Origin: Rhizobium sp. SSA_523
Lineage (GTDB): Bacteria > Pseudomonadota > Alphaproteobacteria > Rhizobiales > Rhizobiaceae
Length of the DNA: 64,000 nt
Assembly (NCBI RefSeq): GCF_030435705.1
Contig: NZ_CP129381.1
Location: 1,364,001-1,428,000, forward strand
Direction of reading: 5' to 3'
The translations under genes were made by a program, and so were the position numbers. Shown here piece after piece: positions 8,696-24,003 of the stretch (position 1 is the stretch's first letter; the number at the start of each line of letters is the position of its first letter). A model generated the notes under the pieces. The model was given only the letters and a program-made list of their open reading frames with translations, was not told the origin of the DNA and searched no databases.

Positions 8696-8721
8696 TGCTC
8701 ACGCGACGGATTGCAAAAATA

Positions 8722-8730
8722 TGATATATC
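8722..8730. promoter_or_regulatory. GATATATC palindrome, site A, before exporter gene
   Basis: TGATATATC with the perfect 8-bp palindrome GATATATC at 8723-8730. It lies in the 65-bp gap between the divergent oxidoreductase remnant and the exporter gene, so it could act in both directions. It is one of four copies in the 8.7-24 kb block and is read as an operator of the GntR protein at 22999-23721 (inference). Confidence 0.6.
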
Positions 8731-8760
8731 GAGCCTCTCCCGGTCACAGGTCGCACCGTT

Positions 8761-9753
8761 TTGAAGAGCGTTTACATCCTAGCCTTGCTCGCCTATGCGG
8801 CATTTTCCGTCACTGATGCCAGCGTCAAGGCGGCAGGCAGCCATTTGTCGATCTTCCAGGTCGCGTTCATGGTCAATGTCTTTGCAGCGCTGTCCGTGCT
8901 GGCCACGCGGCATCCTGGCGAACGATGGCGTGACTTCTGGCGCACCCCTCATCCTCTTGCCGTGCACGGCCGCGCCATCTGCGGCGTCGTGGCAAGCGTT
9001 TCGGGCGTCTACGCCTTCACCACCATTCCGCTTGCCCAGGCCTATGCCCTTGTCTTCCTGGCGCCCCTGTTCGTCACGATCATGTCGGCTCTGGTGCTGA
9101 AGGAATATGTTGGGCTATGGCGATGGTTCGCCGTGGCTATCGGCTTCGTGGGCGTGCTTCTCGTCGTGAAGCCTGGCCACCAGCCGTTCGAGGCCGGGCA
9201 TCTGGCGGCTATCTTCACCGGCCTCGGCACGGGAACGGCGGTCATCATCCTGCGGCGCATCGGCGGCAAGGTGAAAACGACGAGTGTTCTGGGAACGCTC
9301 ATTCTCTATCTCCTCGTGCTCAATGCCGTGGCCATGCTCATCCACGGGGCCAGCATTCCGACATTCCGAGAATGCGCCCTGCTTGCCCTTGCCGGCATGT
9401 CCTACGGGCTGGGCCAATGGGCGCTGGTCTCGGCGACGCGCTATGGCAATGCGACCCAGATCGCGCCCATGCATTATTCGCAGCTGGCCTGGGCCGTCCT
9501 CTTCGGCGCCCTGATCTTCAACGAATTTCCCGATGCCATTGCGCTTGCCGGCATCGTCGTCATAGCATCCGCAGGCCTGCTGACGGTTCTGCGCGAGCGA
9601 TTGCGCGGCATGCGATCATCGGTCGCCCTGGCCGCAACAGTTGGCATTCCGGACGGCGACCCGGTTGCGGATCCGCTGGAAGAACCGGCGAAAGATCCGG
9701 CGGAAACTGTGAAGCGCGCTGAGGATTTTCACCGCCGGCCATTCCCAAAATAA
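8761..9753 (+). CDS. EamA/DMT-family transporter
   Basis: Inner-membrane drug/metabolite transporter of 330 residues with ten predicted transmembrane helices in two EamA repeats; the first repeat ends near LVVKPG (about residue 140) and the second near GLLTVLRERLRG. A charged tail of about 45 residues rich in D, P and E follows. The best available start is TTG at 8761, followed at once by a hydrophobic helix; no in-frame ATG gives a better N-terminus and no strong Shine-Dalgarno is seen. Members export amino acids, nucleosides or metabolites. Its operator-like site links it to the catabolic block downstream. Confidence 0.85.
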   Translation: MKSVYILALLAYAAFSVTDASVKAAGSHLSIFQVAFMVNVFAALSVLATRHPGERWRDFWRTPHPLAVHGRAICGVVASVSGVYAFTTIPLAQAYALVFLAPLFVTIMSALVLKEYVGLWRWFAVAIGFVGVLLVVKPGHQPFEAGHLAAIFTGLGTGTAVIILRRIGGKVKTTSVLGTLILYLLVLNAVAMLIHGASIPTFRECALLALAGMSYGLGQWALVSATRYGNATQIAPMHYSQLAWAVLFGALIFNEFPDAIALAGIVVIASAGLLTVLRERLRGMRSSVALAATVGIPDGDPVADPLEEPAKDPAETVKRAEDFHRRPFPK

Positions 9754-9758
9754 ATATT

Positions 9759-9768
9759 TGATATATCA
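9759..9768. promoter_or_regulatory. TGATATATCA palindrome, site B, before the four-carbon kinase gene
   Basis: A perfect 10-bp palindrome between the exporter stop (9753) and the kinase start (9812). Its presence suggests that the kinase-aldolase-dehydrogenase genes have their own promoter and are not simply read through from the exporter gene. Confidence 0.65.
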
Positions 9769-9811
9769 TGTACGGAAGAAGAAGCTCAACAGCGGCAGTC
9801 GTGGAGACATG

Positions 9812-11098
9812 ATGATCAAGCCAGTCTTCGGGGTCGTCGCAGACGATCTGACAGGCGGAATGGAAACGGCCGCGATGCTGGTCGCCTGCGGTATCGACTG
9901 CGCTTTCGTCACGGATCCGGACGCTGTGGAAAGCCTCGGCCAGGTCGATGCCATCGTTGTCGCGCAGAAGACCCGTGTCGTGCCGGCAGCACAAGCCGTG
10001 GCGCGCACCGAGCGGGCGGCGCGGGCCTTGCTCGCCCGCGGCACGCGGCAGATCTTCTTCAAATATTGCGCGACATTCGATTCCACCGATGACGGAAATA
10101 TCGGCCCCGTCGCCGATCTGCTGATGGCATTGACAGGCGCGCCATATACCGCCTTCTGCCCATCCTCTCCGGCTTTGCAGCGCACCGTCTACAATGGTCA
10201 TTTGTTCCTCGGCAGCCAGCTCATCTCGGAATCCCCCAAGCGCCACGACCCGTTGACGCCGATGACGGATCCGGATCTCGTTCGCGTCCTGCAGCGGCAG
10301 ACGAAGACCCGCGTCGGATCTCTCGCCCACCCCGCCATCTGCGGGGGCGGCGCCGGTCTCACCCAGGCCGTCCAGATCCTGGCCGAACAGGATATCCGCT
10401 ATTTTATCACCGATACGATCTATGACCGCGATCTCGACGCCATAGCCGACCTCACCTGCGACTGGCCGCTGATGACCGGCAATGCCACGATCGTCCAGCA
10501 TTACCCGGCGCTTTGGCGGGAAAAAGGACTTCTCACGGGCGAAGCCCATACGCGAAACCTGCGGCCGGTCTTCGGCAAGGGGGTTGTGCTTTCGGGCAGC
10601 TGCGCCGAGCGGACACGCGAACAGCTTGCCGCATTCGAGCAATCTCACCCCGTCCTGCGCATCGACCTGACGCAGATCGACAGTGCCGAGGCGGCGGTGG
10701 ACGCAGCCCTCCTTTGGGCACTGCCGCTTCTCGAGACCGGACCCGTCGCCCTCTCGACATCTGCTGCACCCGAGGCCGTCTCCGCCGCCCAGGCGCGCTA
10801 TGGCAGGGACGGCGCAGCCGCTCTGGCGGAAAAAATCGTCGGCGACCTTGCCGTCGCCTTTCACCGGGCCGGCGTCCGTCGCTTCGTCGTGGCTGGCGGA
10901 GAAACCTCCGGTTCGGTTGTCGAACGCCTCGGCATACGCGGCCTGGAAGTCGGTCCCTATGGCGGACCGGGCATCGGCACGGCAATCACCACCGACAGCG
11001 ATCCCATCGGCCTATGCCTGAAATCGGGAAAACTCGGTCCGGTCGACCTGTTCACCCGGGCGCTGGCCGCGATGCAGAACCCGGAGCGAGATGCATGA
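9812..11098 (+). CDS. otnK: Four-carbon acid-sugar kinase, OtnK/DUF1537 type
   Basis: ATP-dependent kinase of 428 residues. The N-terminal substrate domain has the family motif VADDLTGGMETA; the C-terminal nucleotide domain has LSGSCAERTREQL, VVAGGETSGSVVERLGI and the closing KSGKLGPVDLF, equivalent to KSGNFG. Characterised members phosphorylate 3-oxo-tetronates at O4 (the D-erythronate and L-threonate routes). GGAG lies five bases before the ATG at 9812; the ATG at 9809 is too close to it. Its stop overlaps the aldolase start (ATGA), the usual OtnK-OtnC pairing. Family assignment is firm; the stereoisomer used is unknown. Confidence 0.85.
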   Translation: MIKPVFGVVADDLTGGMETAAMLVACGIDCAFVTDPDAVESLGQVDAIVVAQKTRVVPAAQAVARTERAARALLARGTRQIFFKYCATFDSTDDGNIGPVADLLMALTGAPYTAFCPSSPALQRTVYNGHLFLGSQLISESPKRHDPLTPMTDPDLVRVLQRQTKTRVGSLAHPAICGGGAGLTQAVQILAEQDIRYFITDTIYDRDLDAIADLTCDWPLMTGNATIVQHYPALWREKGLLTGEAHTRNLRPVFGKGVVLSGSCAERTREQLAAFEQSHPVLRIDLTQIDSAEAAVDAALLWALPLLETGPVALSTSAAPEAVSAAQARYGRDGAAALAEKIVGDLAVAFHRAGVRRFVVAGGETSGSVVERLGIRGLEVGPYGGPGIGTAITTDSDPIGLCLKSGKLGPVDLFTRALAAMQNPERDA

Positions 11099-11742
11099 AC
11101 GAGATGGACCTGCGCAAGACGATGCTCGAGATCGTCGCAAAGCTTGAAGACAAGGGCTTCAACCATGGTTCGAGCGGCAATGTAAGTTGCCGGATGGGCG
11201 ACGACATGCTGGTCACACCGACCGGCGGCAATAGCGGCAATATGACACCGGATCGGCTGGTGAGGCTGGACCGCAATGGCGAGACGATCGGCGATGGCCT
11301 TCCCTCCAGCGAATGGCATATGCACCAGGCCATTCTGCATGCCTATCCGCACGTGCAGGCCGTCATCCACACCCATGCCGATTGCTGCGTCGCTCTCTCC
11401 TGCCTCGGCAAGCCGATCCCTGCCTTCCATTACATGATTGCCAGCTTTGGCGGCACGGATGTGCCCTGCGCGCCCTATGCGACCTTCGGGACGAAGGCGC
11501 TGGCAGACAGCGCCGTTGCAGCACTCCGGGACCGCAAGGCCTGCCTGCTCGCCAATCACGGCATGATCGTTGCCGCGACGTCCCTGCAGCAGGCCTTCGA
11601 CCTGACGGTGAAGCTCGAAACGCTGGCCCGCCAATACATTCTGGCGCGGCAGGCCGGCGAGCCTGCAATCATTCCCGACGAGGAAATCGCGCGGGTTCTG
11701 GAACGCTACAAGGGCTATGGCCGCAGCCGGTTGCCCGGCTGA
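11095..11742 (+). CDS. otnC: Class II aldolase/decarboxylase, OtnC type
   Basis: Zinc-dependent aldolase/adducin-family enzyme of 215 residues. Substrate-phosphate contacts are seen in HGSSGNVSCR and TPTGGNSG, zinc ligands in VIHTHADCC and LLANHGM, and the catalytic acid in the SSEWHMH segment. OtnC decarboxylates 3-oxo-tetronate 4-phosphate to dihydroxyacetone phosphate. Its ATG overlaps the kinase stop, so the two enzymes are translated together and probably act in sequence. The canonical partners LtnD (dehydrogenase) and OtnI (isomerase) are not in this window; an AroE-like dehydrogenase follows instead. Confidence 0.85.
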   Translation: MNEMDLRKTMLEIVAKLEDKGFNHGSSGNVSCRMGDDMLVTPTGGNSGNMTPDRLVRLDRNGETIGDGLPSSEWHMHQAILHAYPHVQAVIHTHADCCVALSCLGKPIPAFHYMIASFGGTDVPCAPYATFGTKALADSAVAALRDRKACLLANHGMIVAATSLQQAFDLTVKLETLARQYILARQAGEPAIIPDEEIARVLERYKGYGRSRLPG

Positions 11743-11759
11743 TCAGAGAAGGAGCCACC

Positions 11760-12548
11760 ATGGAGATCACCGGCACGTCGAAGATCATGTTCGTGCTTGC
11801 CGATCCGGTGGATCATGTCCGCGCCAGCGCGGTGCTGAATGCCTATTTCGCCGGGATCGGCGAGGATATCGCCACGTCGCCGCTTGCCGTTCGTCCGGAA
11901 GACCTCGCAACCATTGTCGAGGCGATCCGCCGCATGGGCAATGTCGTCGGCTTCGGCGTCACCATTCCGCATAAGGTGGCCATCCTGCCTTTGCTGGATG
12001 CGCTGACGGACGAGGCCCGAATGATCGGCGCCGTCAATTTCGTCCGGCGCAACCGCGATGGCCGGCTGCTCGGCGACAACCTGGACGCACCCGGTTTCCT
12101 GGCCGGCCTCAGCGCTCACGGTCTTTCGCCGAAGGGCATGCGGGTTCTGCAGCTCGGTGCGGGTGGCGCCGGTCGCGCCACGGCACTGGCGATCGCACAA
12201 GCGGGAGCCGCCGAACTGTTGATCTCCAACCGCAACGCGACGCGCGGCCAGGTCCTCGCCGACAGCGTCCAGGCACAATTTCCGACAGTCCGCGTCTCTG
12301 CCGGACCGGCGCCTGCCGGAGCTTTCGATCTGATCGTCAACACCACTCCCCTGGGGATGAAGCCAGGCGATGCGCTGCCCGTCGACCTTAGTGGTTTTAC
12401 CGGATCACCGGTCGTCTACGACATCATCGTCAATCCGGCCGTGACGCGCCTCATGGCGGATGCCGAAGCGCGTGGCTCAGTCACCATCGGCGGAAAAGCC
12501 ATGCTGGATGCGCAAATGGCCCTTGTCGCAAGATTGATAAGGCAGTAG
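11760..12548 (+). CDS. Shikimate dehydrogenase-like NAD(P) oxidoreductase with altered substrate site
   Basis: AroE-fold protein of 262 residues. The catalytic Lys is in GVTIPHKV and the catalytic Asp in GDNLDAPGF; the Rossmann motif is QLGAGGAGRA. In true shikimate dehydrogenases the N-terminal HSxSP serines hold the shikimate carboxylate, but here the segment is DHVRASAVLN and both serine positions are lost. It should therefore oxidise or reduce another hydroxy acid. AAGGAG lies six bases before the ATG and 18 bases separate it from the aldolase. Position suggests it supplies the oxo-acid for OtnK/OtnC in place of LtnD (inference). Confidence 0.82.
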   Translation: MEITGTSKIMFVLADPVDHVRASAVLNAYFAGIGEDIATSPLAVRPEDLATIVEAIRRMGNVVGFGVTIPHKVAILPLLDALTDEARMIGAVNFVRRNRDGRLLGDNLDAPGFLAGLSAHGLSPKGMRVLQLGAGGAGRATALAIAQAGAAELLISNRNATRGQVLADSVQAQFPTVRVSAGPAPAGAFDLIVNTTPLGMKPGDALPVDLSGFTGSPVVYDIIVNPAVTRLMADAEARGSVTIGGKAMLDAQMALVARLIRQ

Positions 12549-12554
12549 CATTCC

Positions 12555-12562
12555 GATATATC
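12555..12562. promoter_or_regulatory. GATATATC palindrome, site C, before the ABC operon
   Basis: A perfect 8-bp palindrome followed by AAATATCA, seven bases after the AroE-like gene stop and about 107 bases before the ABC ATPase gene. Read as the operator of the ABC-DMFase-transketolase transcription unit. Confidence 0.6.
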
Positions 12563-12668
12563 AAATATCATAATGGAGCTCGACACGCATGGGGACGGGA
12601 TCGACAGCTGTCTGATGGGTCCTCGCCCTTAAGCCAAGCCAAAACGAAAAAAGTGGGAACAGGCTTCA

Positions 12669-13784
12669 GTGACTATGGCAATAAGCAAAGAATCCGCGGC
12701 AGGCGCATCCATTCGCATCAGCCGCCTTGAGAAGCGCTTCGGAAGCGTTTTCGCGGTTAATGGCGTCGACATCGACATCGCGGCCGGCGAATTTCTGGCG
12801 CTGCTCGGCCCGAGCGGTTCGGGCAAGACGACGATCTTGATGAGCGTGGCCGGGTTCGAATTTCCGAGCAGCGGCAAGATTCTCGTTGATTCCGAAGATC
12901 TGACCTACGTGCCGGCCAACCAGCGCAATCTGGGGATGGTGTTCCAGAACTACACTCTGTTTCCGCACATGTCGATTTTGGACAATGTCGCATTTCCCCT
13001 GAAGATGCGCGGCATGGCGAAGGCCGAGCGCTACGCCAAAGCGGAAGAAGCGCTCTCCACCGTCCGCCTGGCGGGGTACGGAGACCGCTTCCCGAACCAG
13101 TTGTCCGGTGGCCAGCAGCAGCGCATCGCCCTCGCCCGGGCGATCGTCTACCGGCCCCGCGTCCTGCTGATGGACGAGCCGTTGAGCGCTCTCGACAAGA
13201 ACCTGCGCGAAGACATGCAGCTCGAAATCAAGCGCCTGCATGCCGAGCTTGGCATCACCGTCATCTTCGTCACCCATGACCAGGGTGAAGCGCTCACCAT
13301 GGCCGACCGGGTCGCGGTCCTGAAGGACGGCAAGATCCAGCAGATCGGCCCGTCACGCGAACTTTACGAGCGTCCCGCCAACCTCTTCACCGCCGGCTTC
13401 ATCGGCGAGATGAATTTCATCGACGTCACGGTGGAAGCCGCCGGCGACACGATGACCGTTCTGCTGCCCTCGGGCGAGCGCTGGAGTGTTCCGGCTGCCG
13501 CGGCCGTCGAGCCTCTGCATGTCGGCCAGAAGGCGGTTCTCGGCTTCCGTCCGGAGCGGCTGGCGCTCAACGCCACCGGCTCGGATCATACGCTGCAGGT
13601 GACGCTGTCGGACGTGGTCTATGCGGGGTCGGCCCTGCTGCTGATCGGCAGGCTGCCCGACGGCACCGAGATCCGCGCCCGCCTTCCAGGCGCCTCCGAT
13701 CTCGCTGCGCTCACGCGCGGTGCGACCGCCACGTTCAGCGTCTCGAAGGACGCGATCCTGCTTTATGCGGGAGGGACGAAGTGA
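12669..13784 (+). CDS. ABC transporter ATPase, spermidine/putrescine (PotA) type
   Basis: Cytoplasmic ATPase of 371 residues powering the importer encoded downstream. Walker A is GPSGSGKTT, the Q-loop VFQNYTLFP, the signature LSGGQQQR, Walker B VLLMDEP and the H-switch FVTHDQ. A C-terminal TOBE domain (from about residue 280) is typical of the PotA/FbpC/CysA group. The start is GTG at 12669; an ATG at 12675 is equally likely because no strong Shine-Dalgarno decides. Its stop overlaps the GTG of the first permease. Substrate class (polyamine, opine, amide or other small nitrogen compound) is inferred from the family only. Confidence 0.92.
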   Translation: MTMAISKESAAGASIRISRLEKRFGSVFAVNGVDIDIAAGEFLALLGPSGSGKTTILMSVAGFEFPSSGKILVDSEDLTYVPANQRNLGMVFQNYTLFPHMSILDNVAFPLKMRGMAKAERYAKAEEALSTVRLAGYGDRFPNQLSGGQQQRIALARAIVYRPRVLLMDEPLSALDKNLREDMQLEIKRLHAELGITVIFVTHDQGEALTMADRVAVLKDGKIQQIGPSRELYERPANLFTAGFIGEMNFIDVTVEAAGDTMTVLLPSGERWSVPAAAAVEPLHVGQKAVLGFRPERLALNATGSDHTLQVTLSDVVYAGSALLLIGRLPDGTEIRARLPGASDLAALTRGATATFSVSKDAILLYAGGTK

Positions 13785-14659
13785 CTGGTCACGCCCGATC
13801 CCAATTCTGGCATTCCGATGGGCGCCGCCTGAGCGGACTGGCAACGCTGCTGCTGCTGTCGCCCTTCTTCGCCATCATCGCCTTCGTCTTCATCTACCCG
13901 CTCGCCCAGTTGCTCTACATCAGCTTCACCGAGCCGGCGCCGACGCTCGACAATTATGCGCGCGTCGTCACCAATCCGGTCTATGCGCGGGTGCTGATGC
14001 GGACGATCTGGACCGCTGTGCTGGTGACAGGCCTTGCCGTTCTTCTCGGCTTCCCCGTCGCCTATTTCATGAGCCGCGCCCGCGGCACGACGGCCGCTTT
14101 GGTGGGCACCTGTGTCATTCTGCCCCTGTGGTCGAGCGTGCTCGTGCGAACCGCCGCATGGTCTTTCCTCTTCCAGCGCGAGGGGTTGATCAATTCCGGC
14201 CTGATGGCGCTTGGCATCACCTCCGAACCGCTGAGGCTTCTCTACACTCAAGGGGCGGTCGTCGTAGCGATGACCCATGTTCTGCTGCCGTTCATGATCC
14301 TGCCGATCTTCGGATCCCTGCGTGCCATCCCGAACGACTATCTGCGGGCCGCCGCCGTTCTCGGCGCCTCGCGCTTCGCCACCTTCCGCGAAGTCCTGCT
14401 GCCGCTCAGCCTGCCGGGAATCGCCAGCGGATCGCTGCTGGTCTTCCTGACCGCACTTGGCTTCTTCATCACGCCGGCGCTGCTCGGCTCGCCGCAGGAA
14501 CTGATGATCGCCACCCTTGTATCGCAGCAGATCCGCGAGGTTCTCGACTGGCCGTTCGCCTCGGCGCTGGTTGGCGTCCTGACGCTCTTCGTCACGCTGC
14601 TGGCCCTCATCTTCAGCAAGACCCTGCGGTTCGACCGGTTGATGGGAGCGCAATCATGA
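13781..14659 (+). CDS. ABC transporter permease, PotB type
   Basis: Inner-membrane subunit of 292 residues with six predicted helices; the first is LSPFFAIIAFVFIYPLAQL. The EAA loop that contacts the ATPase reads YLRAAAVLGASRFATFREVLLPLSLPGI. The GTG start at 13781 overlaps the ATPase stop (GTGA). It forms the channel with the second permease. Confidence 0.92.
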   Translation: MTGHARSQFWHSDGRRLSGLATLLLLSPFFAIIAFVFIYPLAQLLYISFTEPAPTLDNYARVVTNPVYARVLMRTIWTAVLVTGLAVLLGFPVAYFMSRARGTTAALVGTCVILPLWSSVLVRTAAWSFLFQREGLINSGLMALGITSEPLRLLYTQGAVVVAMTHVLLPFMILPIFGSLRAIPNDYLRAAAVLGASRFATFREVLLPLSLPGIASGSLLVFLTALGFFITPALLGSPQELMIATLVSQQIREVLDWPFASALVGVLTLFVTLLALIFSKTLRFDRLMGAQS

Positions 14660-15447
14660 AGCCACCCGTCGACAAAGCCTCGCTGGCACTGGGCGCCTAT
14701 GTCTATGCCGTTCTCGCCTTCATCATCATTCCGCTGGTCATTGTCATTCCGATGTCCTTCGGCACGAGCGATTACCTGGAATTTCCACCCCGCGGCTTCA
14801 CGCTGAAATGGTACCAGGAGTTTTTCGACAGCCGCCAATGGCGCAATGCCACCTGGCTCAGCGCGCAAGTCGCCTTTCTGACCGCCATCTCGGCGTCGAT
14901 CATTGGAACTGCGGCGACCTATGCCATGGTCCGCGGACGGAGCAGCCTGGCAACGCTCTTCCAGATCCTGCTGATCGGCCCGATCATCGTGCCGCATATC
15001 GCACTTGCTGTCGGCCTTTATCTGTTTTTCCAGTCGATCGGCCTGTCGGGCACCGTTCCAGGCTTCGTTCTCGCTCACACCATTCTGGCGCTTCCCTTCG
15101 TCGTCTTCACCACCGCGTCCGCGCTGGGCAAGGTGGATGCGAACCTCGAAGCTGCGGCGATGAGCTGCGGCGCGAGCCGTTTCAACGCCTTTCGCCTGAT
15201 CACGCTTCCGCTCATCTTGCCGAACGTGATCAGTGGCGCACTGTTCGCCTTCATCATCTCCTTCGATGAACCGGTCGTGTCCTTCTTCCTCTCCGGCGTC
15301 CGCTACAAGACCCTGCCGCGCCGGATGTTCGAAGACATCGAGCAAAATCTCACCCCCATCATACCGGCGATCGCGACGCTGCTGATCGTCCTCTCCATCG
15401 CGATACTCGCCATCGCCTTCCTGATGAGGTCGCGTGCAAAAGCCTGA
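14656..15447 (+). CDS. ABC transporter permease, PotC type
   Basis: Second channel subunit, 263 residues, six predicted helices. The EAA loop is NLEAAAMSCGASRFNAFRLITLP, and the FDEPVVSFFLSG segment after it is typical of PotC. The ATG overlaps the stop of the first permease (ATGA). Confidence 0.92.
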   Translation: MKPPVDKASLALGAYVYAVLAFIIIPLVIVIPMSFGTSDYLEFPPRGFTLKWYQEFFDSRQWRNATWLSAQVAFLTAISASIIGTAATYAMVRGRSSLATLFQILLIGPIIVPHIALAVGLYLFFQSIGLSGTVPGFVLAHTILALPFVVFTTASALGKVDANLEAAAMSCGASRFNAFRLITLPLILPNVISGALFAFIISFDEPVVSFFLSGVRYKTLPRRMFEDIEQNLTPIIPAIATLLIVLSIAILAIAFLMRSRAKA

Positions 15448-15490
15448 CTGGGAACAAAGCTTAGAACTTAAAAACAAGAGGAGAACCATC

Positions 15491-16558
15491 ATGCCGATAC
15501 AGAACTGGAAATGGACCACCGCAGCGATTGCGATCGCCGCGGGACTTGCCGGCACGACACCCGCCGTCGCGCAGGAACTGGAAGATCAGCTGGTTATCGC
15601 CACGACGGGCGGCCTGATGGGCAACTCGCTGGCCAAGTATTTCTACGAGCCTTTCGCAAAAGCCAAGGATGTCGAAGTGGTGCCGGTCGCCATCGAGGTT
15701 CCCGACCAGTGGGCGCGTTCGGAAGCGATGATGCGCACCGGCAATGTCGAATTCGACATTGTCACCGCCACCGGTCCGGATCTCGTTGCGCGCACCGAGA
15801 TGCTCGAAAAGATCGACTGCAGCCAGCTTCCCAGTGTTCAGAAGTTCGGCGTCTCGGATGCCTGCACGCCCTACGGCGTCGTGCGCACCACCGGCGGCAT
15901 GCTGATCAACTACAATACCGAGGCTTTCAAGGACAAGGCGCCGACCACCTGGGCCGACTTCTGGAACGTCAAGGACTTCCCCGGCCCGCGCGGCCTGCCC
16001 GATACCGGCGATCGCGACTGGTGGGTTCCCGTCGCCGCCCTTCTGGCGGACGGCGTCAAGCAGAGCGAACTGTTTCCGCTCGATCTCGACCGCGCCTACA
16101 AGAAGCTCGATGAGATCCGCCCGCATGTCGCCGTCTGGTGGAAGACCGGCGACCAGGTGCAGCAGATCATGCGCAACAAGGAAGTCGTCATGACCATGAG
16201 CTATTCCGGCCGCGCGCTGGCAGTGGTCAAGGAAGGCGGGCCGGTTGCCATGTCCTGGGACGGTGCGATCCGCGACACAGGCTATATGGCGATCCTCAAG
16301 GGTGCTCCCGACAAGAATGCAGCGCTTGCCTATCTCGACTTCTTCTATGCCAATGCAGAGGCCCATGTGCCCTTCATGCGGGACGTGAACTACGCAACCG
16401 GCAGCAAGACGGTCTACGACCAGCTGAAGCCGGAGGAAGCCAAGCTCTTTGCCACCTCGCCGGAAAACTACGAGAAGCTGGTGAAGCCCGACTTCGCCTG
16501 GATCGGCGCCCATCGCGATGAACTGCGCCAGCGCTGGACGGCGTGGCTGACCCGCTGA
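15491..16558 (+). CDS. ABC transporter periplasmic binding protein, PotD/PotF type
   Basis: Extracellular solute-binding protein of 355 residues with a clear signal peptide (KWTTAAIAIAAGLAGTTPAVAQ). The mature chain reads LVIATTGGLMGNSLAKYFYEPFAKAKDVEVVPV, then PYGVVRTTGGMLINYNTE and PTTWADFWNVKDFPG, all characteristic of the polyamine/Fe(III) binding-protein cluster. GAGGAG lies before the ATG at 15491. It is the fourth gene of the importer operon and is followed by two hairpins and then by the amidase-like genes, which suggests that its ligand is their substrate. Confidence 0.9.
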   Translation: MPIQNWKWTTAAIAIAAGLAGTTPAVAQELEDQLVIATTGGLMGNSLAKYFYEPFAKAKDVEVVPVAIEVPDQWARSEAMMRTGNVEFDIVTATGPDLVARTEMLEKIDCSQLPSVQKFGVSDACTPYGVVRTTGGMLINYNTEAFKDKAPTTWADFWNVKDFPGPRGLPDTGDRDWWVPVAALLADGVKQSELFPLDLDRAYKKLDEIRPHVAVWWKTGDQVQQIMRNKEVVMTMSYSGRALAVVKEGGPVAMSWDGAIRDTGYMAILKGAPDKNAALAYLDFFYANAEAHVPFMRDVNYATGSKTVYDQLKPEEAKLFATSPENYEKLVKPDFAWIGAHRDELRQRWTAWLTR

Positions 16559-16607
16559 TCGCGGGCTCCTGAGCATCGGGCCGTTTCCAAATTCGCCCGA
16601 CGCTATA

Positions 16608-16658: not shown

Positions 16659-16715
16659 CAGGCCCGACAGGCCAAAGGGCAGACCCGGACAATTGCAACG
16701 ACAGGAACGATTTGC

Positions 16716-17066
16716 ATGGATCACACCAGTGACCCGAACGCGCTGCGCTATGTCATCGATCCGCAGCGGCTCGATCTCGTGGAGGAATTCCGCAAGAGCC
16801 CGCTCGGCGTGCATAGCGCCGAGCTGCGCAAGATGCTGGCGAAGATGCGCTGGGGCAAGGCGCAGGGCCGCCTCGTCCTGATCGTGCTGGAGGCCGGCAA
16901 GGCGTGGCGTCTTTCGCGCATTCCCGAGCGTCGCGGCGATCCGATGCCATTCGTCGACGATCGCATCTTCACGTCGCTTTCCGAGGCGGAATGGCATGTT
17001 TTCAAGATCCGCTGGCAGGCCATGACCGGCCAAACGCTACCCCCGGAGTATCAAGGTGATCTATAA
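16716..17066 (+). CDS. N,N-dimethylformamidase small-subunit-like protein
   Basis: 116 residues. The pattern LDLVEEFRKSPLGVHSAELRKMLAKMR ... GRLVLIVLEAGKAWRLSRIPERRG ... VDDRIFTSLSEAEWHVFKIR follows, in the same order, the small subunit of dimethylformamidase as I recall it (NPFG..., Y.IYT..EWSSYRIAEIREFG..., LTDDSFATEEEAMHAVFLKR). The small subunit packs against the iron-containing large subunit. The gene overlaps the following large-subunit-like gene by 11 bases, which supports a stoichiometric pair. Recognition is by eye and the similarity is moderate. Confidence 0.7.
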   Translation: MDHTSDPNALRYVIDPQRLDLVEEFRKSPLGVHSAELRKMLAKMRWGKAQGRLVLIVLEAGKAWRLSRIPERRGDPMPFVDDRIFTSLSEAEWHVFKIRWQAMTGQTLPPEYQGDL

Positions 17067-19302
17067 GACCAACGAATATCTCGGCTACCCCGACCGGATC
17101 AGCGTGCCGGCCGGCGAAACCGTCAAGTTCCAGCTGTCGAGCCGGCGCGACGCCGTCAAGGTCGAAGTCCTGCGCCTGCGCTGCGGCGATGTCGACGTCA
17201 ACGGGCCAGGCTTCAAGTATGACCTGATGGACAGCGCCATAGACGGCGTTCACGCCTGCCTGGACCAGGAGATCCGGCCCGGCTCCTGCGCGGTGATCGA
17301 GCATGGCGGCACGCTTGTTCCCAGTGGCAACGGCTGGTCCTTCGGCTGCTATATCTATCCCACCCACATCGCCGATAATGGTCGCGGCATCATGAGCAAC
17401 TGGTGCGAAACCACCGGCCAGGGCTATGCGCTCGAGCTCGACTCCGAAGGCCGCCCCGTCCTGCGCCTGGGAAGCACCTGCCTCACCCTCGACGTCAAGG
17501 TTCGCGAACGGGTCTGGTCCTTCATCTCCGCAACGCTCGACCTCGCCAAAAAGACCGCCAGGTTGTCCTTGATCGTGCCGGCCGACGGCACGCGTCCGGC
17601 AGCGGCCCATGCGAAGAGCTTTGCGCTTCCCGATGTCCTGCCGCTCGACAGCGGCCTCGATTTTCTGATCGCCGCCCACCACCTGGACCCCGCGAACCGC
17701 TACACGGCGCATTTCGACGGGAAGATCGAGGCGCCGCGGATCGTCTCCAGCTCTCTGGAAGCCGAGGCGCTGCGGGTCCTCGATTGCCAGCCGCGCACTG
17801 GAGCAGCCGCGCCCGGCCTCGTCGCCTTCTGGGATTTCGGGGATGGCATCACGACGCTCGACATCAAGGACCTCTCGGCCAATTGCCTGCATGGCCGCTT
17901 GCATCAGCTGCCGCGACGCGGCGTCACGGGCTTTTTCTGGTCCGGCGCCGTGCATGATTTTCGCCTGGCGCCGCGCGAATATGCGGCCATCCACTTTCAC
18001 AGCGACGACATCTATGACTGCCAGTGGCAGACAACATTCACGCTCGATGTGCCTGCGGATTGGCGCACCGGCGTCTATGCGCTGCGGCTGACGCCGGCCG
18101 GAGACGAACCGGAGCCGGACTGCGAGAGCTACGTCACCTTCTTCGTCACCCCCGGCAAGCAGACCAAGCGGGCGGATCTCGTGGTCGTGCTCTCGGTTGC
18201 AACCTACCTGGCCTATGCGAACAGTGCGCTGCGGCTCTACCAGGTGCATTTCGAGACGCTGATGGAGCATGTGCTCTGGCTGCCGCTGGACGATGTCTAC
18301 ATGCAGGAGCATCCTCAGATCGGCCAGTCGACCTATGACAGCCATGTTGACGGATCCGGCCGCGCCTATTCGTCCTGGCTCCGTCCGGTCCTCAGCATGC
18401 GTCCGCGCGGCTACTGGTTCAACATGATCAACGACACCCATATCCTCGACTGGCTTGAGGAAAAGGGCATCGCCTATGACGTCATCACCGATGTCGAACT
18501 GGACCGCGAAGGCGCCCGTGCGCTGAGGCCCTATCGCGCGATGATGACGCCGACCCATGCGGAATATTACTCGTTCAACATGATGAACGGCATCATGGAC
18601 TACCAGAACGGCGGGGGCCGGCACATTTCCATGGGCGGCAACGCCTTCTACTGGCGTTGCGGCTTCCATCCGGCGGCTCCGGCCGCGCTCGAAGTGCGCC
18701 GCGGAATGGCCGGCACCCGCACCTGGGAGTCCGAACCGGGTGAAGTGCATCTGGCCGGCACCGGCGAGCCGGGCGCCCTCTGGAGGCATAGCGGTTTCGC
18801 CCCGCAGAAGCTGGTCGGCACCGGCTTTTCGGCGATGATCAACGACACCTGCACCTATTACGTCCGCACGCCGGACAGCGAGGATCCGCGGGCGGCCTTC
18901 ATCTTCGAAGGCACCGGACGGCACGAGCGGTTTGGCGATTTCGGCTTCCGCTACGGTGGCGCCGTGGGCAGCGAGATCGACCGTCTGGACTACGACCTCG
19001 GGACGCCGCGCCACGCCTTGCTGATTGCCACTTCGGAAGGTCTCGGCGCCGGCGCGCTTCCGACGCCGGAGGAGTTCCGCACCATGGTCGACGGGCTGGA
19101 CGGTACGCAGAACGCTCTTGTCCGCGCCGACATGGTGTTCTTCGAGACGGGCAATGGCGGCGCAGTCTTCGCCTCCGGCTCGATCACCTTCGGCATGTCG
19201 CTCGGCCACAACAATTATGACAACAATATCAGCACGATCACGCTGAATGTCGTGAAGCGGTTTCTCGACCCCGAACCCTTCGTCCTGCCGGCTTTGACCT
19301 AG
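17056..19302 (+). CDS. N,N-dimethylformamidase large-subunit-like amidohydrolase
   Basis: 748 residues, close to the 760 or so of the DMFase large subunit. An N-terminal beta domain is followed by a concanavalin-like lectin fold (GWSFGCYIYPTHIADNGRGIMSNW, about residues 90-250), then the DMFase C-terminal domain with PTHAEYYSFNMMNGIMDYQ, HISMGGNAFYWRC and GALWRHSGFAPQKLVGTGF. DMFase is a mononuclear-iron enzyme with Tyr, His and Glu ligands; the EYYS tyrosine is a good candidate ligand, the others need alignment. The GTG start at 17056 has GGAG eight bases upstream. Likely hydrolyses a simple or N-substituted amide; the substrate is unknown. Confidence 0.78.
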   Translation: MIYKTNEYLGYPDRISVPAGETVKFQLSSRRDAVKVEVLRLRCGDVDVNGPGFKYDLMDSAIDGVHACLDQEIRPGSCAVIEHGGTLVPSGNGWSFGCYIYPTHIADNGRGIMSNWCETTGQGYALELDSEGRPVLRLGSTCLTLDVKVRERVWSFISATLDLAKKTARLSLIVPADGTRPAAAHAKSFALPDVLPLDSGLDFLIAAHHLDPANRYTAHFDGKIEAPRIVSSSLEAEALRVLDCQPRTGAAAPGLVAFWDFGDGITTLDIKDLSANCLHGRLHQLPRRGVTGFFWSGAVHDFRLAPREYAAIHFHSDDIYDCQWQTTFTLDVPADWRTGVYALRLTPAGDEPEPDCESYVTFFVTPGKQTKRADLVVVLSVATYLAYANSALRLYQVHFETLMEHVLWLPLDDVYMQEHPQIGQSTYDSHVDGSGRAYSSWLRPVLSMRPRGYWFNMINDTHILDWLEEKGIAYDVITDVELDREGARALRPYRAMMTPTHAEYYSFNMMNGIMDYQNGGGRHISMGGNAFYWRCGFHPAAPAALEVRRGMAGTRTWESEPGEVHLAGTGEPGALWRHSGFAPQKLVGTGFSAMINDTCTYYVRTPDSEDPRAAFIFEGTGRHERFGDFGFRYGGAVGSEIDRLDYDLGTPRHALLIATSEGLGAGALPTPEEFRTMVDGLDGTQNALVRADMVFFETGNGGAVFASGSITFGMSLGHNNYDNNISTITLNVVKRFLDPEPFVLPALT

Positions 19303-19378
19303 ACGGCGACGGGCCGCGCCGGCGCGCGGCCTTGGCAAACCCTGCGGCATGCGCCGTACGCGACTTCAAGAGGCGATC

Positions 19379-21055
19379 ATGGCAGACAGACCGGAATTTC
19401 AATCTCCCGAGCTCGGACCGATGAATGTCGCGCCGCGCAAGGTGCGGCCGATGCATGCCGACGACCACTGGAACAGCCAGCCGTGGTACGAGGCACCGCG
19501 AGAAGACCCCGACATACCGGAAGTCTATACCTATACCGACGCGATCTCGTACGATCCCGGCGACGAGGTCACATTCCATTCGACCTCGACCGCCAGGACC
19601 TGGCGCCTGCAGATCTATCGCGACGGATTGCACCCGGAAACCGTGCATGAGGTAGCGGCGATTGATGGCGTATTCGCGCCGACCCCCAAGGACGCCTACC
19701 GCAACGGCTGCAACTGGCCGGTCAGTCATCGATGGACATTGCCGGCCGACCTGAAGTCGGGCTTCTACCGCGTGGTATCGACCTGCGACAGGCCGAACGG
19801 CATCAAGTTCGTGCAGCATCACTTTTTCGTCGTGCGGCCGACTGAAAAGACCCGCCGCGCCAAGATCCTGATGGTCCTGCCGACCGGCACCTGGACGTCC
19901 TACAACGACTTCGGCGGCGCCAATCACTATTTCGGCGTCGAAGGCGAGAACCGCGATCAGCCGTCGCCGGTCCTGTCGCTCGAACGTCCCTGGACGCGCG
20001 GCATTGTCTGGCTGCCGGCGGGCGCGCCGCGGATCTGCGCCGATCCGGCACCGGAAATGGGTGACGCGCCGCGCTATGCGATGAAGGAATGGGCCTATGC
20101 CAATGGCTTCGGCCAGTATTATGCGGCTGCCGGCTGGGCGCAGTTCGACCGCCACTTCGTGCTTTGGGCCGAAAAAGAAGGCTTCGAGCTCGACATGATC
20201 ACCCAGACCGATCTGCATTACCGGCCGGAGCTGCTCGACGCCTATCCCTGCGTCACCATTATCGGTCACGACGAATACTGGACCTGGGAAATGCGCGAGG
20301 CGATGGAGGGCTATGTCGAGCGCGGCGGAAATCTTGCCCGCTTCGGCGCGAATTTCCTCTGGCAGATCCGTCTCGAGGCGGATGGCAAGCGGCAGATCTG
20401 CCACAAGTTCAAGGCGATCCACAACGATCCCGTCGCAGGCACAGACAAGGCGCATCTGCTGACCAGCGCCTGGGAGGACCACACTGTGAAGTGGCCGGGT
20501 GCGTCGACGGTCGGCGTCAACGGGGCGCACGGCATGTATGCCTCCTGGGGCGGCTTTGCGCCGAACGGCCAGAAGGGCATGACCGTCTACCGGCCGACCC
20601 ACTGGGCCTTCCAGGGCACCGGCCTGCACTATGCCGACATCTTCGGCGACAAGCAGCATATCTTCGCCTATGAGGTGGACGGCCTGGACTACACGTTCCG
20701 CCACGGCCTCCCCTATCCGGTCGCGGTGGAGGGCCAGCCCGAGACGATCGAGATCCTTGCGATGTCGCCGGCGGTCCTCGCCGAGGACGAGCCCGAAGGC
20801 GAAGGCTTCCGCTACTATGTGCGCGGCAGCGATCATGAGGGGCTTGTCGAATGCGTTACCGGAGAGGTAACGCCGGAAGGGCTCGCGCGCTACAAATACG
20901 GATCCGGGATGATGGTGCACATGACCCGCGGCAAAGGCGAGGTGCTGACCGCGGCCACTTGCGAATGGGTCATGGGCCTGAAACGCGGCGATCCTTTCAC
21001 CCAGCGCATCACCCGCAACATCCTTGACCGGTTTACCGCCGGCCGATCCGCATAG
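19379..21055 (+). CDS. Second, shorter DMFase large-subunit-like protein
   Basis: 558 residues, clearly related to the C-terminal part of the preceding gene product but not a duplicate. It lacks the lectin-like domain and starts with a beta domain (PEVYTYTDAISYDPGDEVTFH). The core has MVLPTGTWTSYNDFGGANHYFG, IIGHDEYWTWEMREAMEGYVERGG and RFGANFLWQIR, where the first paralogue has EYYS and GGNAFYW. Key aromatic and glycine positions therefore differ, so it may have another substrate or be non-catalytic. AGAGG precedes the ATG at 19379; the upstream ATG at 19349 is less likely. There is a 76-base gap after the first paralogue. Confidence 0.72.
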   Translation: MADRPEFQSPELGPMNVAPRKVRPMHADDHWNSQPWYEAPREDPDIPEVYTYTDAISYDPGDEVTFHSTSTARTWRLQIYRDGLHPETVHEVAAIDGVFAPTPKDAYRNGCNWPVSHRWTLPADLKSGFYRVVSTCDRPNGIKFVQHHFFVVRPTEKTRRAKILMVLPTGTWTSYNDFGGANHYFGVEGENRDQPSPVLSLERPWTRGIVWLPAGAPRICADPAPEMGDAPRYAMKEWAYANGFGQYYAAAGWAQFDRHFVLWAEKEGFELDMITQTDLHYRPELLDAYPCVTIIGHDEYWTWEMREAMEGYVERGGNLARFGANFLWQIRLEADGKRQICHKFKAIHNDPVAGTDKAHLLTSAWEDHTVKWPGASTVGVNGAHGMYASWGGFAPNGQKGMTVYRPTHWAFQGTGLHYADIFGDKQHIFAYEVDGLDYTFRHGLPYPVAVEGQPETIEILAMSPAVLAEDEPEGEGFRYYVRGSDHEGLVECVTGEVTPEGLARYKYGSGMMVHMTRGKGEVLTAATCEWVMGLKRGDPFTQRITRNILDRFTAGRSA

Positions 21056-21110
21056 GCGGAGATGGGACGAGCTTTCGCATCAGAACAATGGCCTGGGAGG
21101 GTTTGAGCCG

Positions 21111-21977
21111 ATGAACACTGATACCAGCCGCGAAAGGCAGCCTGCCGCGCGCAACCGCGATCCTGCCGACCTCGCGCGGATCGCGCGGTCGCTCCGGCGC
21201 CACGTGATCGCGCTCGTGGCACCGACCGGCCAGGGCTATGTCCAGCAGGGTCTCGGCGCGGCCGACCTGTTCGCCGTCTTGTATTTCGCTGAAATGCGGC
21301 TCGACCCGGCCGATCCGCAATGGCCGGACCGCGACCGCTTCCTGCTCTCGACGGCCCATAACACGGCCATCTTCTATGCAACGCTTGCCGCGCGCGGCAT
21401 TGTCGAGCGGGATCTGGTGGACCAGTATTGCCAGGATGGTTCCGTGTTCGAGGTCAATGCCTCCGAACGGGTCGGCACAGCCATCGAAGCGACGCTCGGC
21501 TCTCTCGGACAGGGCCTCTCGGTCGGCATCGGCATGGCACTCGCGGCACGGCGCCGCGGCTCGCAAAGCCGGGTTTACGTGGTTCTCGGCGATGGCGAAT
21601 TGCAGGAGGGCCAGCTCTGGGAAGCGGCTCTCTATGCCGGCAGCGCCGGTCTCTCCAATCTCTGCCTGATCATCGACTACAACAGCATGCAAGTTGAAGG
21701 TCATATCGACAAGGTGGTGTCGGTGGCGCCGGTCGCCGAAAAATTCGCGGCTTTCGGTTGGGCCGCCGAGGAGATCGACGGCCATGACATTCCGGCTCTC
21801 TTGACGGCGCTCGAAGAGGCCCGTGGCCGGGACAGGCCGACCTGCCTCGTGGCCACCACAACTGCCGGCAAGGGCGTGCCGTCGCTGGAGGGCATCCTCG
21901 CCCATAATCTCAAACTGCCAGCCGAGGTCGCCGCCGAGGCGATGGCCGCCCTGGCCGATGCGGAGGAGAGACCATGA
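21111..21977 (+). CDS. Transketolase N-terminal (TPP-binding) subunit
   Basis: 288 residues. The thiamine-diphosphate motif begins GDGELQEGQLWEAALYAG and ends DYNSMQ (about residues 157-190); DRFLLSTAHNTAIFYATLA and EATLGSLGQGLSVGIGMAL are standard transketolase segments. Split transketolases need the partner subunit to complete the active site. GGGAGG lies ten bases before the ATG at 21111, and the stop overlaps the ATG of the C-terminal subunit. It may move a two-carbon unit released from the imported substrate into sugar phosphates (inference). Confidence 0.92.
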   Translation: MNTDTSRERQPAARNRDPADLARIARSLRRHVIALVAPTGQGYVQQGLGAADLFAVLYFAEMRLDPADPQWPDRDRFLLSTAHNTAIFYATLAARGIVERDLVDQYCQDGSVFEVNASERVGTAIEATLGSLGQGLSVGIGMALAARRRGSQSRVYVVLGDGELQEGQLWEAALYAGSAGLSNLCLIIDYNSMQVEGHIDKVVSVAPVAEKFAAFGWAAEEIDGHDIPALLTALEEARGRDRPTCLVATTTAGKGVPSLEGILAHNLKLPAEVAAEAMAALADAEERP

Positions 21978-22975
21978 GCCGCCAGACGGAAGACCGAGCA
22001 TCCCTGGAAGTCCTGGACTTCAACGCGCGTGGCGCCTCGGCGGCGACGGCGCAGAAACATTACGGAGAGGCACTGCTGCAGGCCGCACAGGCTGATGACC
22101 GGATCGTCTGCCTGACCGCCGACCTCACCCTTCCGACGGAGACGGACCTGTTCCGCGACCAGTTGCCGGAGCGCTTTCACCAGGTCGGCATCGCGGAAGC
22201 CAATATGATCGGCATCGCCGGAGGTCTGGCTCGGTCCGGCGAGATTCCCTTCGTTCACAGCTTCTGCGTCTTTGCGACCCGTCGCTGCTATGACCAGATC
22301 GCCATGCAGGTGGCCTATCCGCGCGCCAATGTGAAGATCGTCGGGGTAATCCCCGGATTGACGACTTTGCTCGGGGTCTCGCATCAGGCGATCGATGATA
22401 TCGCCCTGATGCGGGCACTACCGAACATGACGGTGATCGAACCGAGCAGCCCGGACCAGGTGCGTGCTTCGGTCGCGGCGATCGCCCGGCATGAGGGTCC
22501 GGTCTACCTGCGCCTGAAACGCGCCGACGGAACGGAGGTGGTCGGCGATCCTGCATCCGACTTTACCATCGGCAAGATGAGGGTGCTGCGCGAGGGCCAG
22601 CAGGGCCTGATCGTCGCCTGCGGCATGATGGTCTATATCGCACGATCGGCCGCTGACGCGTTGAGCCGCGACGGCATCGAAATGACGGTCGTCGACATGG
22701 CGACGATCAAACCGCTCGATCCCGCTTTGGTCGAACTTGCGAGGCGGATGCCGCTTGTCGTCACCGCGGAAAACCACTCGATCATTGGCGGGCTCGGGAG
22801 CGCGGTGGCGGAAATGCTGATGGAAAACGATGTCCCGTCGAAATTCCGCCGCCTCGGCGTCCGCGACACGTTCGCCGAAGGCGGCACAACCGCCTTTCTC
22901 TTCGAGAAATACGGGTTATCCGCGAATGCCCTGGTTGCGACGATCCGCCAGGCACTGGCACAGCCAGCACCATGA
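21974..22975 (+). CDS. Transketolase C-terminal (pyrimidine-binding) subunit
   Basis: 333 residues. The pyrimidine-domain glutamate is in FHQVGIAEANMIGIAGGLA, followed by FCVFATRRCYDQI and, in the C-terminal domain, VVTAENHSIIGGLGSAVAE. It overlaps the N-terminal subunit gene by ATGA. Together they equal one full transketolase, lacking only the usual linker. It is the last plus-strand gene before the regulator, which faces it on the other strand 23 bases away. Confidence 0.92.
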   Translation: MSRQTEDRASLEVLDFNARGASAATAQKHYGEALLQAAQADDRIVCLTADLTLPTETDLFRDQLPERFHQVGIAEANMIGIAGGLARSGEIPFVHSFCVFATRRCYDQIAMQVAYPRANVKIVGVIPGLTTLLGVSHQAIDDIALMRALPNMTVIEPSSPDQVRASVAAIARHEGPVYLRLKRADGTEVVGDPASDFTIGKMRVLREGQQGLIVACGMMVYIARSAADALSRDGIEMTVVDMATIKPLDPALVELARRMPLVVTAENHSIIGGLGSAVAEMLMENDVPSKFRRLGVRDTFAEGGTTAFLFEKYGLSANALVATIRQALAQPAP

Positions 22976-22998
22976 GGGACCTGCGTGCCCTTGCGGCC

Positions 22999-23721
22999 TC
23001 AGGCGGAGGGGGGTGGCAGGTAGCGGGTGCCGCCGGATTTTTCCAGCAGGCGCACCAGGTTTTGTCCGCCTTCCATCATGTCTGCCTGAATGGCTTCGCG
23101 AACCTTGTCTGCACGGCGCTGCCGCAAGTATTTCAGCACGGACAGGTGCTGATGCTCTTTCGGGTAGGTCGGGGGCGCGCTCGGATAATGGAAGTTCAGG
23201 AGCGGCCCGTTGCGCATCCAGATATCGTCGAGGATGGCCAAAACTTCCGGCAGTTCGGATCCTTCGTAAAGCCCGCGGTGAAACTGCCAGTTGGCGCGCA
23301 CCGCATCCGACCAGCGCTGCTGCTGCTCGGCCGCGATCAATTCGGCATGAATGGCTTCCATACGGTCGATATCGGCCTCCGAAACACGCGTTGTGGCGTG
23401 TTCGGCGGCAAGGCCTTCAAGAAACAAGCGCACCGTCCGCAGCTCGATATACTGCTTGGCCGTCATGTGAGCCACGGCGATCGAACGGCCCGCCTGCATT
23501 TCCAGCGCCCTGGCGCGCACCAATTGCATCAGCGCCTCGCGGATCGGCGTCTCGGAGACGTTCATCGTCGTCGCCAGATCACGGATCTTAAAGCGATGGC
23601 CCGGCCAGAACCGGCCCTCCATCAGGGCTTGCCGCAGGTTGTTGTAGACCAAGCCGGTCAGGCTATCCCGCACGACCGGTCCAACTCCATTACCGTCCAC
23701 CACCTGATCCACGTCTCGCAT
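22999..23721 (-). CDS. GntR-family regulator, FadR/FCD subfamily
   Basis: 240 residues. The N-terminal winged helix is about 24-90 (LVYNNLRQALMEGRFWPGHRFKIRDLATTMNVSETPIREALMQLVRARAL). The C-terminal all-helical FCD effector domain is about 95-225; its metal-binding residues probably include the aspartate and histidine of DAVRANWQFHRGLY and a later EHQHL histidine. FCD proteins usually bind short A/T palindromes and respond to carboxylic acids. It sits between the transketolase and aminotransferase genes, and the GATATATC sites across 8.7-24 kb are its probable operators (inference). Confidence 0.9.
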   Translation of the reverse strand: MRDVDQVVDGNGVGPVVRDSLTGLVYNNLRQALMEGRFWPGHRFKIRDLATTMNVSETPIREALMQLVRARALEMQAGRSIAVAHMTAKQYIELRTVRLFLEGLAAEHATTRVSEADIDRMEAIHAELIAAEQQQRWSDAVRANWQFHRGLYEGSELPEVLAILDDIWMRNGPLLNFHYPSAPPTYPKEHQHLSVLKYLRQRRADKVREAIQADMMEGGQNLVRLLEKSGGTRYLPPPSA

Positions 23722-23770
23722 CTCGTTTCCTAGTACGGCCGGTGAGCCGGACGAGCCGGCGCCTGTTCAC

Positions 23771-23786
23771 CTATATATAATATACC
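23771..23786. promoter_or_regulatory. AT-rich element before the GntR gene
   Basis: CTATATATAATATACC lies 50-65 bases before the regulator start. It has the same T/A alternation as the GATATATC sites but lacks the G and C ends. It may be the regulator's -10 region, a weak autoregulatory site, or both. Confidence 0.35.
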
Positions 23787-23982
23787 CTGTCGGATTTGCA
23801 CGCTCTACCCATGACATCCTTAGAGAGGCTTTTACTCGCAGACGATCCCTCCCGTCCATGGTTTTTCATGCGGCCGAGTAACCCACAGATTGGGAAATGG
23901 CGGGAGCGGACAGAGGCTACCCAACACTGAGGGATTGCTGCCCCCAGACCCCAGCAAAGTGATTGCGGACCGGCCTCATATA

Positions 23983-23992
23983 TGATATATCA
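23983..23992. promoter_or_regulatory. TGATATATCA palindrome, site D, before the aminotransferase gene
   Basis: A perfect 10-bp palindrome identical to site B, ending 11 bases before the aminotransferase ATG and directly abutting its AAAGGA Shine-Dalgarno. A protein bound here would block the end of the promoter or transcription start. Confidence 0.65.
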
Positions 23993-24003
23993 AAGGAACA
24001 AAG

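Follow-up and report, generated by a model that had tools for sequence, protein, structure and literature searches.

Predicted operator sites and genes of the locus

In the genome of Rhizobium sp. SSA_523 we analyzed a window of 64,000 nucleotides (contig NZ_CP129381.1, positions 1,364,001 to 1,428,000; 62% GC, host genome of 5.48 Mb in 4 contigs) that contains a cluster of predicted import and catabolic genes, a gene for an FCD-type regulator of the GntR family (hereinafter gntR), and several copies of an AT-rich element predicted to be its operators (Table 1). Exactly four copies of the palindrome GATATATC are present in the window (8723-8730, 9760-9767, 12555-12562, and 23984-23991), as counted in the original prediction, which proposed from the sequence of the window that four such operators define a self-contained regulon of the local GntR protein. 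Dinucleotide shuffles of the window contain 0.31 copies on average, and none of 100 shuffles reaches four. The extended palindrome TGATATATCA is perfect in two cases, at 9759 and 23983, again as previously noted, and a longer 14-15 bp element, ATATWTGATATATC, is common to all four copies (site 3 being read on the minus strand). Gene calls and family matches agree that these sites, designated S1 to S4, lie in gaps before an exporter, an OtnK-like kinase, an ATP-binding cassette (ABC) importer and an aminotransferase, respectively. Site S2 has a weaker second arm on its other side (GTACATGATATATC, minus strand). The presence of an FCD-type GntR gene inside the block is confirmed by its two Pfam domains, and the related AT-rich element described before its start corresponds to S5, which we propose as a putative autoregulatory site of gntR. 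All four copies of the palindrome are thus present as described; the set of predicted operators grows to five with the one before gntR, and each is longer than the 8-mer.

Table 1. Predicted operator sites and genes of the gntR locus, with coordinates in the window
Feature	Position	Strand	Assignment and remarks
S1	8716..8730	+	14-mer 8717-8730, 1 mismatch, AAATATGATATATC; 30 bp before listed EamA start codon
EamA-family transporter	8761..9753	+	Pfam PF00892; listed start TTG, true start uncertain
S2	9753..9767	+	14-mer 9754-9767, exact, ATATTTGATATATC; 41 bp before kinase ATG at 9809
3-oxo-tetronate kinase-like (OtnK) kinase	9809..11098	+	NCBIfam NF043035, 398.3 bits (cut-off 350)
Class II aldolase, FucA-like	11095..11742	+	Pfam PF00596
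Shikimate-dehydrogenase-like (AroE-like) oxidoreductase	11760..12548	+	Pfam PF08501/PF01488
S3	12555..12569	-	14-mer 12555-12568, exact; ~100 bp before ABC importer operon
PotA-type ATPase, two permeases, solute-binding protein (four genes)	12669..16558	+	Pfam, NCBIfam
Small conserved protein (116 amino acids) and first DMFA2_C amidase	16716..19302	+	Amidase by PF20254
Second DMFA2_C-domain protein, diverged	19349..21055	+	PF20254; short local match to 8huy
Split transketolase, N- and C-terminal halves	21024..22975	+	PF00456, PF02779/PF02780; first start codon uncertain
FCD-type GntR regulator, 240 amino acids	22999..23721	-	Pfam GntR 2.4e-13, FCD 8.3e-18
S5	23773..23786	+	ATATATAATATACC, 2 mismatches to longer element; upstream of divergent gntR
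S4	23977..23991	+	14-mer 23978-23991, exact, ATATATGATATATC; 12 bp before aminotransferase ATG
Class-III aminotransferase	24004..25251	+	Closest solved relative 6hbs, 455.6 bits, residues 13-410

Specificity of the predicted operator in the host genome

The bare palindrome is scattered over the host genome, with 24 copies (20 outside the locus) against 13 for a reversed control pattern, which rules it out as a marker of the locus. Its density in the locus is nevertheless far above background (Poisson P ~4e-7 for four copies in 15.3 kb, a post hoc value for a region picked by its hits). The arm that completes the longer element is missing from all 20 off-locus copies, even at two mismatches, and 8 of the 12 examined among these 20 fall inside stop-free frames of at least 293 amino acids. 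Genome-wide matches to ATATWTGATATATC with up to one mismatch are four in number and coincide with S1 to S4 only; at two mismatches, a fifth place of the locus (before gntR) and seven off-locus places are added, besides matches that overlap S1 to S4, and the core is intact in none of the seven. These seven were considered as further regulon members and rejected; in tblastn of their 3-kb loci, related genes for ABC transporters turned up in the neighborhood of only one (L024). We conclude that the locus-specific signal is the 14-15 bp element, not the 8-mer. The earlier argument from the rarity of the palindrome therefore goes too far for the bare 8-mer and holds for the longer element. Of the outcomes named in the original prediction as refuting it, many scattered copies are found for the 8-mer, not for the full element at up to one mismatch.

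Conservation in related genomes

Among 300 sampled genomes, including the host (G000), the regulator is found at E ≤1e-40 in 14 and at least one exact 14-mer in 18. Three exact copies occur only in G000 and in G048, the nearest sampled relative that carries the locus, and these two are also the only ones in which the identity of the GntR reaches 89% or more. In G048, sites are present at the same five places as in the window, for instance ACATATGATATATC in the same position before the EamA gene, a conserved S2, and ATATATAATATAGC in the place of S5. This genome has an additional operator-like site, ATATATGATATGTC, before the split transketolase (L073, 14227-14240). Upstream of the window transketolase, which follows the second amidase-like gene, no site is found even at five mismatches (21000-21110). 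A reversed control yields ~30 matches across the 300 genomes, with a maximum of one per genome; single copies therefore represent background, and only multiple copies are informative. The 19 exact places in the 16 other genomes were considered as members of the cluster; 16 of these places have no cluster homolog in the fetched 2-3 kb, one (L058) lies beside a GntR of 33% identity, and two are near generic ATPases.

A scan of genome contigs with the GntR alignment found 177 relatives, of which the best 80 loci were kept, including those of Bradyrhizobium, Mesorhizobium, Bosea, Microvirga, the Roseomonas group, Stella, Reyranella and a Variovorax. Counts are given for 79 loci, as L083 was left out as an apparent repeat of G048, while the apparent repeats L119 (G091) and L154 (G125) were retained, as were L137 and L143, which share a contig. 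The window-derived 14-mer matches at 135 places in 76 of the 79 loci with up to one mismatch and at 159 places in 78 loci with up to two, compared with 0 and 3 places for the reversed pattern and 0 and 1 for one shuffle per locus. The one locus missed at two mismatches, L143, still contains the whole 8-mer, and the arms beside it are weak. The expectation that orthologous loci retaining the GntR gene also retain the sites is thus borne out. In L101 (Brucella cytisi), the GntR is matched as two tblastn pieces together with an exact site, and the 20.7 kb covered have no match to the aminotransferase, permeases or amidases of the cluster; this locus looks like a remnant.

Co-occurrence of the sites with the regulator

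The cluster aminotransferase is found at E ≤1e-130 in 17 of the 300 genomes. All 12 of these that also encode the GntR regulator have a site with up to two mismatches in the stretch fetched (in G233 and G296 at two mismatches; G144 was covered over 4.2 kb), whereas none of the six loci in the five genomes without it (G008, G135, G140, G161, and G243, with aminotransferases 52-64% identical) has a site in stretches of 15-20 kb (12/12 vs 0/5, Fisher P = 1.6e-4). In G071, the sites adjoin transketolase genes, at a distance of ~9 kb from the aminotransferase.

We also examined 10 plasmid relatives of the regulator among 30 listed from 165 plasmid records. Both relatives at 47-52% identity have sites, one at one mismatch and one only at two. 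Among the eight at 35-41%, a site is present at up to one mismatch in two (L166 and L167), only at two mismatches in four, and not at all in two. Five shorter loci of ~3.6 kb (GntR 33-44% identical) include one with a two-mismatch match and four with none; one of these four, L048, adjoins a copy in which the core is intact and the arm weak, found in L079 at three mismatches. As far as these alignments indicate, the motif is shared by part of a wider clade of FCD regulators. In L166, two similar sites lie just upstream of the regulator gene (9818-9851), with acetolactate-synthase-like and branched-chain ABC genes as neighbors.

The conservation and co-occurrence data bear on the view that the sites are simply AT-rich promoter (-10) sequences in GC-rich DNA, which we consider extremely improbable. 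The core does resemble a -10 sequence, and the bare 8-mer is frequent in the genome; however, a generic -10 sequence would not yield an element of 14 bp restricted to a single locus, nor match in 76 of 79 loci at a threshold where the controls give nothing, and the sites vanish where the regulator is absent.

Sites upstream of orthologous genes

We collected 280-bp upstream pieces of orthologous genes from the related loci (L083 included) and thinned them for six sets: aminotransferase (70 to 37), potA (31 to 19), gntR (80 to 47), otnK (29 to 13), tktN (11 to 7), and DMF1 (32 to 12). A site with up to two mismatches is present upstream of 30 of the 37 aminotransferase genes and, within 250 bp of the start, of all 19 potA genes, as well as in 30/47 gntR pieces (in one case barely within the coding sequence) and 6/13 otnK pieces. 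The gntR sites suggest that this gene may be autoregulated.

The distances between site and start codon range from 12 to 194 bp in full; they fall within 12-56 bp in 27 of the 30 aminotransferase cases and within 24-40 bp in 14 of the 19 potA cases. A TTG precedes the core by 23 nt in 8/30 aminotransferase regions and by 13 nt in 6/17 potA regions. This spacing, together with the nearness to start codons, points to putative -35 elements and would place the operator over the -10 sequence or the spacer, which in turn speaks for repression; the regulator probably acts as a repressor. A variant of the same GntR-operator pairing, compatible with it, would make the protein an activator or dual regulator. 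Some FCD regulators do activate, e.g., CitO, according to passages of PMC4746285, and the wide range of distances would suit such a role; the 27 aminotransferase sites close to the start, presumably overlapping the likely -10 or spacer, are typical of repressors, and we regard activation as unlikely.

Architecture of the predicted operator

Expectation maximization started from random seed words (two of the six upstream sets, one width) gave the motifs TGATATATCATATA for the 37 thinned aminotransferase pieces and GATATATCAAATA for the 19 thinned potA pieces; thus, the element of the window is recovered without preselection. An alignment of 137 sites, thinned to 77 distinct ones, had been preselected at up to one mismatch, so that only its flanks and the placement of mismatches are informative. 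The core is nearly invariant, including both of its edges, and the arm is looser. With at least five of six positions matched, an arm is found on at least one side of 135/155 cores in the 79 loci, where ~1% would be expected; for the 82 cores in four upstream sets, which can share sites, it is on one side in 67, on both in 5, and on neither in 10. The predicted operator is therefore the core GATATATC plus an arm ATAYWT, 14-15 bp in total, with the arm on at least one side in most copies and at a 7-bp repeat spacing from the core.

Two geometries are compatible with this pairing of regulator and operator. The symmetry axis may be that of the 8-10 bp palindrome TGATATATCA, in which case a single dimer would bind the palindrome and the arm would be an accessory half-site, or the operator may be a 15-bp inverted repeat GATATAT-S-ATATATC. 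The near-invariance of both core edges speaks for the palindrome axis, and so does PMC4494728, which describes for many GntR palindromes additional, weaker half-sites at a distance of 7-12 nt. Against it stand the presence of an arm beside most cores, rarely on both sides (5/82), and some sites that keep the 15-bp symmetry without an intact 8-mer; we hold the palindrome axis as a possibility of slightly less than even probability.

The regulator and its predicted DNA recognition

The regulator consists of an N-terminal helix-turn-helix (HTH) domain (PF00392, 49.9 bits, cut-off 27) and a C-terminal FCD domain (PF07729, 65.4 bits, cut-off 24.3), which places it in the FCD subfamily. Nine named NCBIfam models match it, none above cut-off (including PhnR and NanR); the best, PRK11414, presumably YdfH, scores 92.6 against 225. 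Another FCD-GntR-like gene in the window (35018-35701, plus strand) encodes a protein 24% identical and adjoins other gene groups.

The recognition helix contains SETP in 80 of 81 tallied rows, the remaining row not covering the helix. By hand alignment to FadR residues, Glu57 appears to occupy the position of the DNA-contacting Arg45 in FadR, and Arg47, invariant in 12 aligned sequences, that of Arg35. FadR Arg45 contacts G specifically (Table 1 of PMC4494728). Its replacement by Glu fits an operator without GT/AC boxes: the motif found here has none and does not match the consensus TKGT-N2/3-ACMA given for the FCD/FadR subfamily in PMC4494728, a consensus that is usual rather than defining. 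The same source describes AT-rich, non-consensus operators for the FadR-subfamily regulators NanR (TGGTATAW direct repeats) and BioR (TTATMKATAA), which offer a precedent; they differ in sequence and arrangement from GATATATC with an arm at 7-bp repeat spacing. The closest solved relative of the regulator by profile is Escherichia coli McbR (YncC; PDB 4p9f, 5.6e-39), which likewise has a non-Arg residue at the key HTH position (Ile, in SITP). Its sites are said in excerpts of PMC13343897 to include ATATAT. Unlike McbR, the regulator of the window has only a few predicted sites, all in a single locus, and carries Glu at this HTH position.

Judging from the alignments, Arg is missing at FadR position 45 from all of these site-bearing proteins, the regulators of L166 and L167 included, and this is what they share. 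In the FCD domain, N144, H148, H190, and H192 are invariant in the 12 aligned sequences and are candidates for ligand or metal binding in the pocket. The regulator resembles FadR, LldR, PdhR, GlcC, and HypR in combining a GntR HTH with an FCD domain and, by prediction, in governing a local catabolic regulon with sites before the targets and its own gene.

Probable pairing of regulator and operator

The data above make it very probable that the local FCD-GntR is paired with these operators, as the original prediction held; binding is predicted. The notion of a self-contained regulon of one regulator is supported with respect to this pairing, not with respect to the motif, which belongs to a wider clade.

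Several observations weigh against the pairing. The 79 loci were picked by GntR similarity and include close species, so they are not independent. Single exact 14-mers in genomes other than G000 and G048 (19 places in 16 genomes) are at background level, and two-mismatch matches also occur in whole genomes lacking the regulator, e.g., eight in G005 with the 15-mer pattern. No site was found upstream of 17 of 47 gntR and 7 of 13 otnK genes, nor of any of the 7 tktN and 12 DMF1 genes, which would have to be operon-internal. A promoter scan of 8600-24100 gave one sigma-70-like match, overlapping S2 (shuffle mean 3.0), and was uninformative. At the key position, Pro takes the place of Glu in the regulators of L166 and L167, which lie near sites with up to one mismatch, so that Glu is not required for the motif and sister regulators may read it. 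Likewise, the exact 14-mer of L058 is situated just upstream of the gene for its 33% identical GntR.

The last two observations could be taken to mean that another regulator, e.g., a paralogous FCD GntR encoded elsewhere in the genome, binds the sites, given that FCD regulators of 38-41% (L166, L167) and 33% identity (L058, genome G076) occur beside similar ones. This is very unlikely, as the nine own-genome paralogs detected at E ≤1e-8 share 28% identity in the case of the top-scoring one and at most 33% (over 129 residues), Glu57 is present in none of the eight that can be aligned, and the aminotransferase loci lacking this GntR have no sites in the 15-20 kb covered.

Predicted pathway

The kinase passes the cut-off of the OtnK family, and its activity is predicted accordingly. 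The aldolase remains below the cut-offs of named families (in the best 25 of 38 NCBIfam matches); it scores 129.7 bits against NF043034 (3-oxo-tetronate 4-phosphate decarboxylase, which we take to be OtnC), where the cut-off is 250. The first DMFA2_C amidase is dimethylformamidase-like, its closest solved chains being 8huy and 6lvb. The 116-amino-acid protein encoded directly 5' of it (16716-17066) has no Pfam family and no credible match in a PDB search (best E 0.61); it is present in all 34 amidase-bearing loci among the best 80, and is possibly a small subunit of this amidase. Divergently from S1, the region 5093-8695 on the minus strand encodes a gamma-glutamyltranspeptidase, an amidohydrolase, and a further open reading frame without assignment, which has a 33% match in G243 (L191), at ~6 kb from the aminotransferase gene of that genome.

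The best solved relatives of the cluster aminotransferase and of the first amidase are an aminopentol aminotransferase (6hbs, presumably FumI) and N-acetyl-(R)-beta-phenylalanine acylase (8huy). Unlike these single enzymes, the cluster also includes a kinase, an aldolase, a dehydrogenase, a split transketolase, and a PotA-type importer. The relatives of the amidase, aminotransferase, and kinase, together with the PotA-type importer, the split transketolase, and the AroE-like enzyme, suggest a scheme in which an N-acylated amino-polyol or beta-amino acid would be imported, split at its amide bond, deaminated, phosphorylated, and finally cleaved; the substrate itself is a guess, perhaps half as likely to hold as to fail.

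Literature queries combining GntR with GATATATC at the start of a word returned nothing, a looser query on the motif gave no mention of GntR among the matches listed, and those on combinations of the cluster genes gave no description of the cluster among the matches listed; RegPrecise was outside their scope. In the portions concerned, PMC9858248 names aminotransferases by accession only, and PMC5343134 lists other GntR regulons.

Proposed regulatory model and implications

The computation shows the sites, that they are specific to the locus and conserved, and that they occur together with the regulator; beyond this, we infer binding, repression, an effector, and a substrate as follows. GntR would bind the five 14-15 bp operators, one for each of the transcription units of the locus: the exporter; the kinase, aldolase, and dehydrogenase; the importer, amidase, and transketolase; the aminotransferase; and gntR itself. 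Most likely, it would keep these units repressed as long as no metabolite of the pathway is bound; such a ligand, probably a carboxylate accommodated by the FCD domain, would take the protein off the DNA and so induce uptake and degradation of a nitrogen-containing compound. The support is good for a local regulon that is of a familiar type and unusual in its operator.

More tentatively, and with somewhat less than an even expectation of being right, we propose an undescribed branch of FCD-GntR regulators in which a one-armed AT-rich operator (GATATATC plus ATAYWT) would have replaced the GT/AC boxes in step with the loss of Arg45 (Glu in the core branch). The core branch would govern a likewise undescribed catabolism of N-acylated amino compounds by amidase, aminopentol-aminotransferase-like deamination, phosphorylation, and aldol cleavage across Alphaproteobacteria and some Betaproteobacteria. 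If this proposal is true, the operator would serve as a sequence tag for finding further pathway genes. The joint loss of the DNA-contacting Arg and the GT/AC boxes provides a specific prediction on DNA choice by GntR proteins. The substrate of the cluster may have applied interest, since one of the encoded enzymes is related to an aminotransferase of the type that acts in fumonisin degradation and another to an N-acyl-beta-amino-acid acylase. The analysis provides a precise and testable regulator-operator pair for this gene cluster in rhizobia and other, mostly alphaproteobacterial, species.

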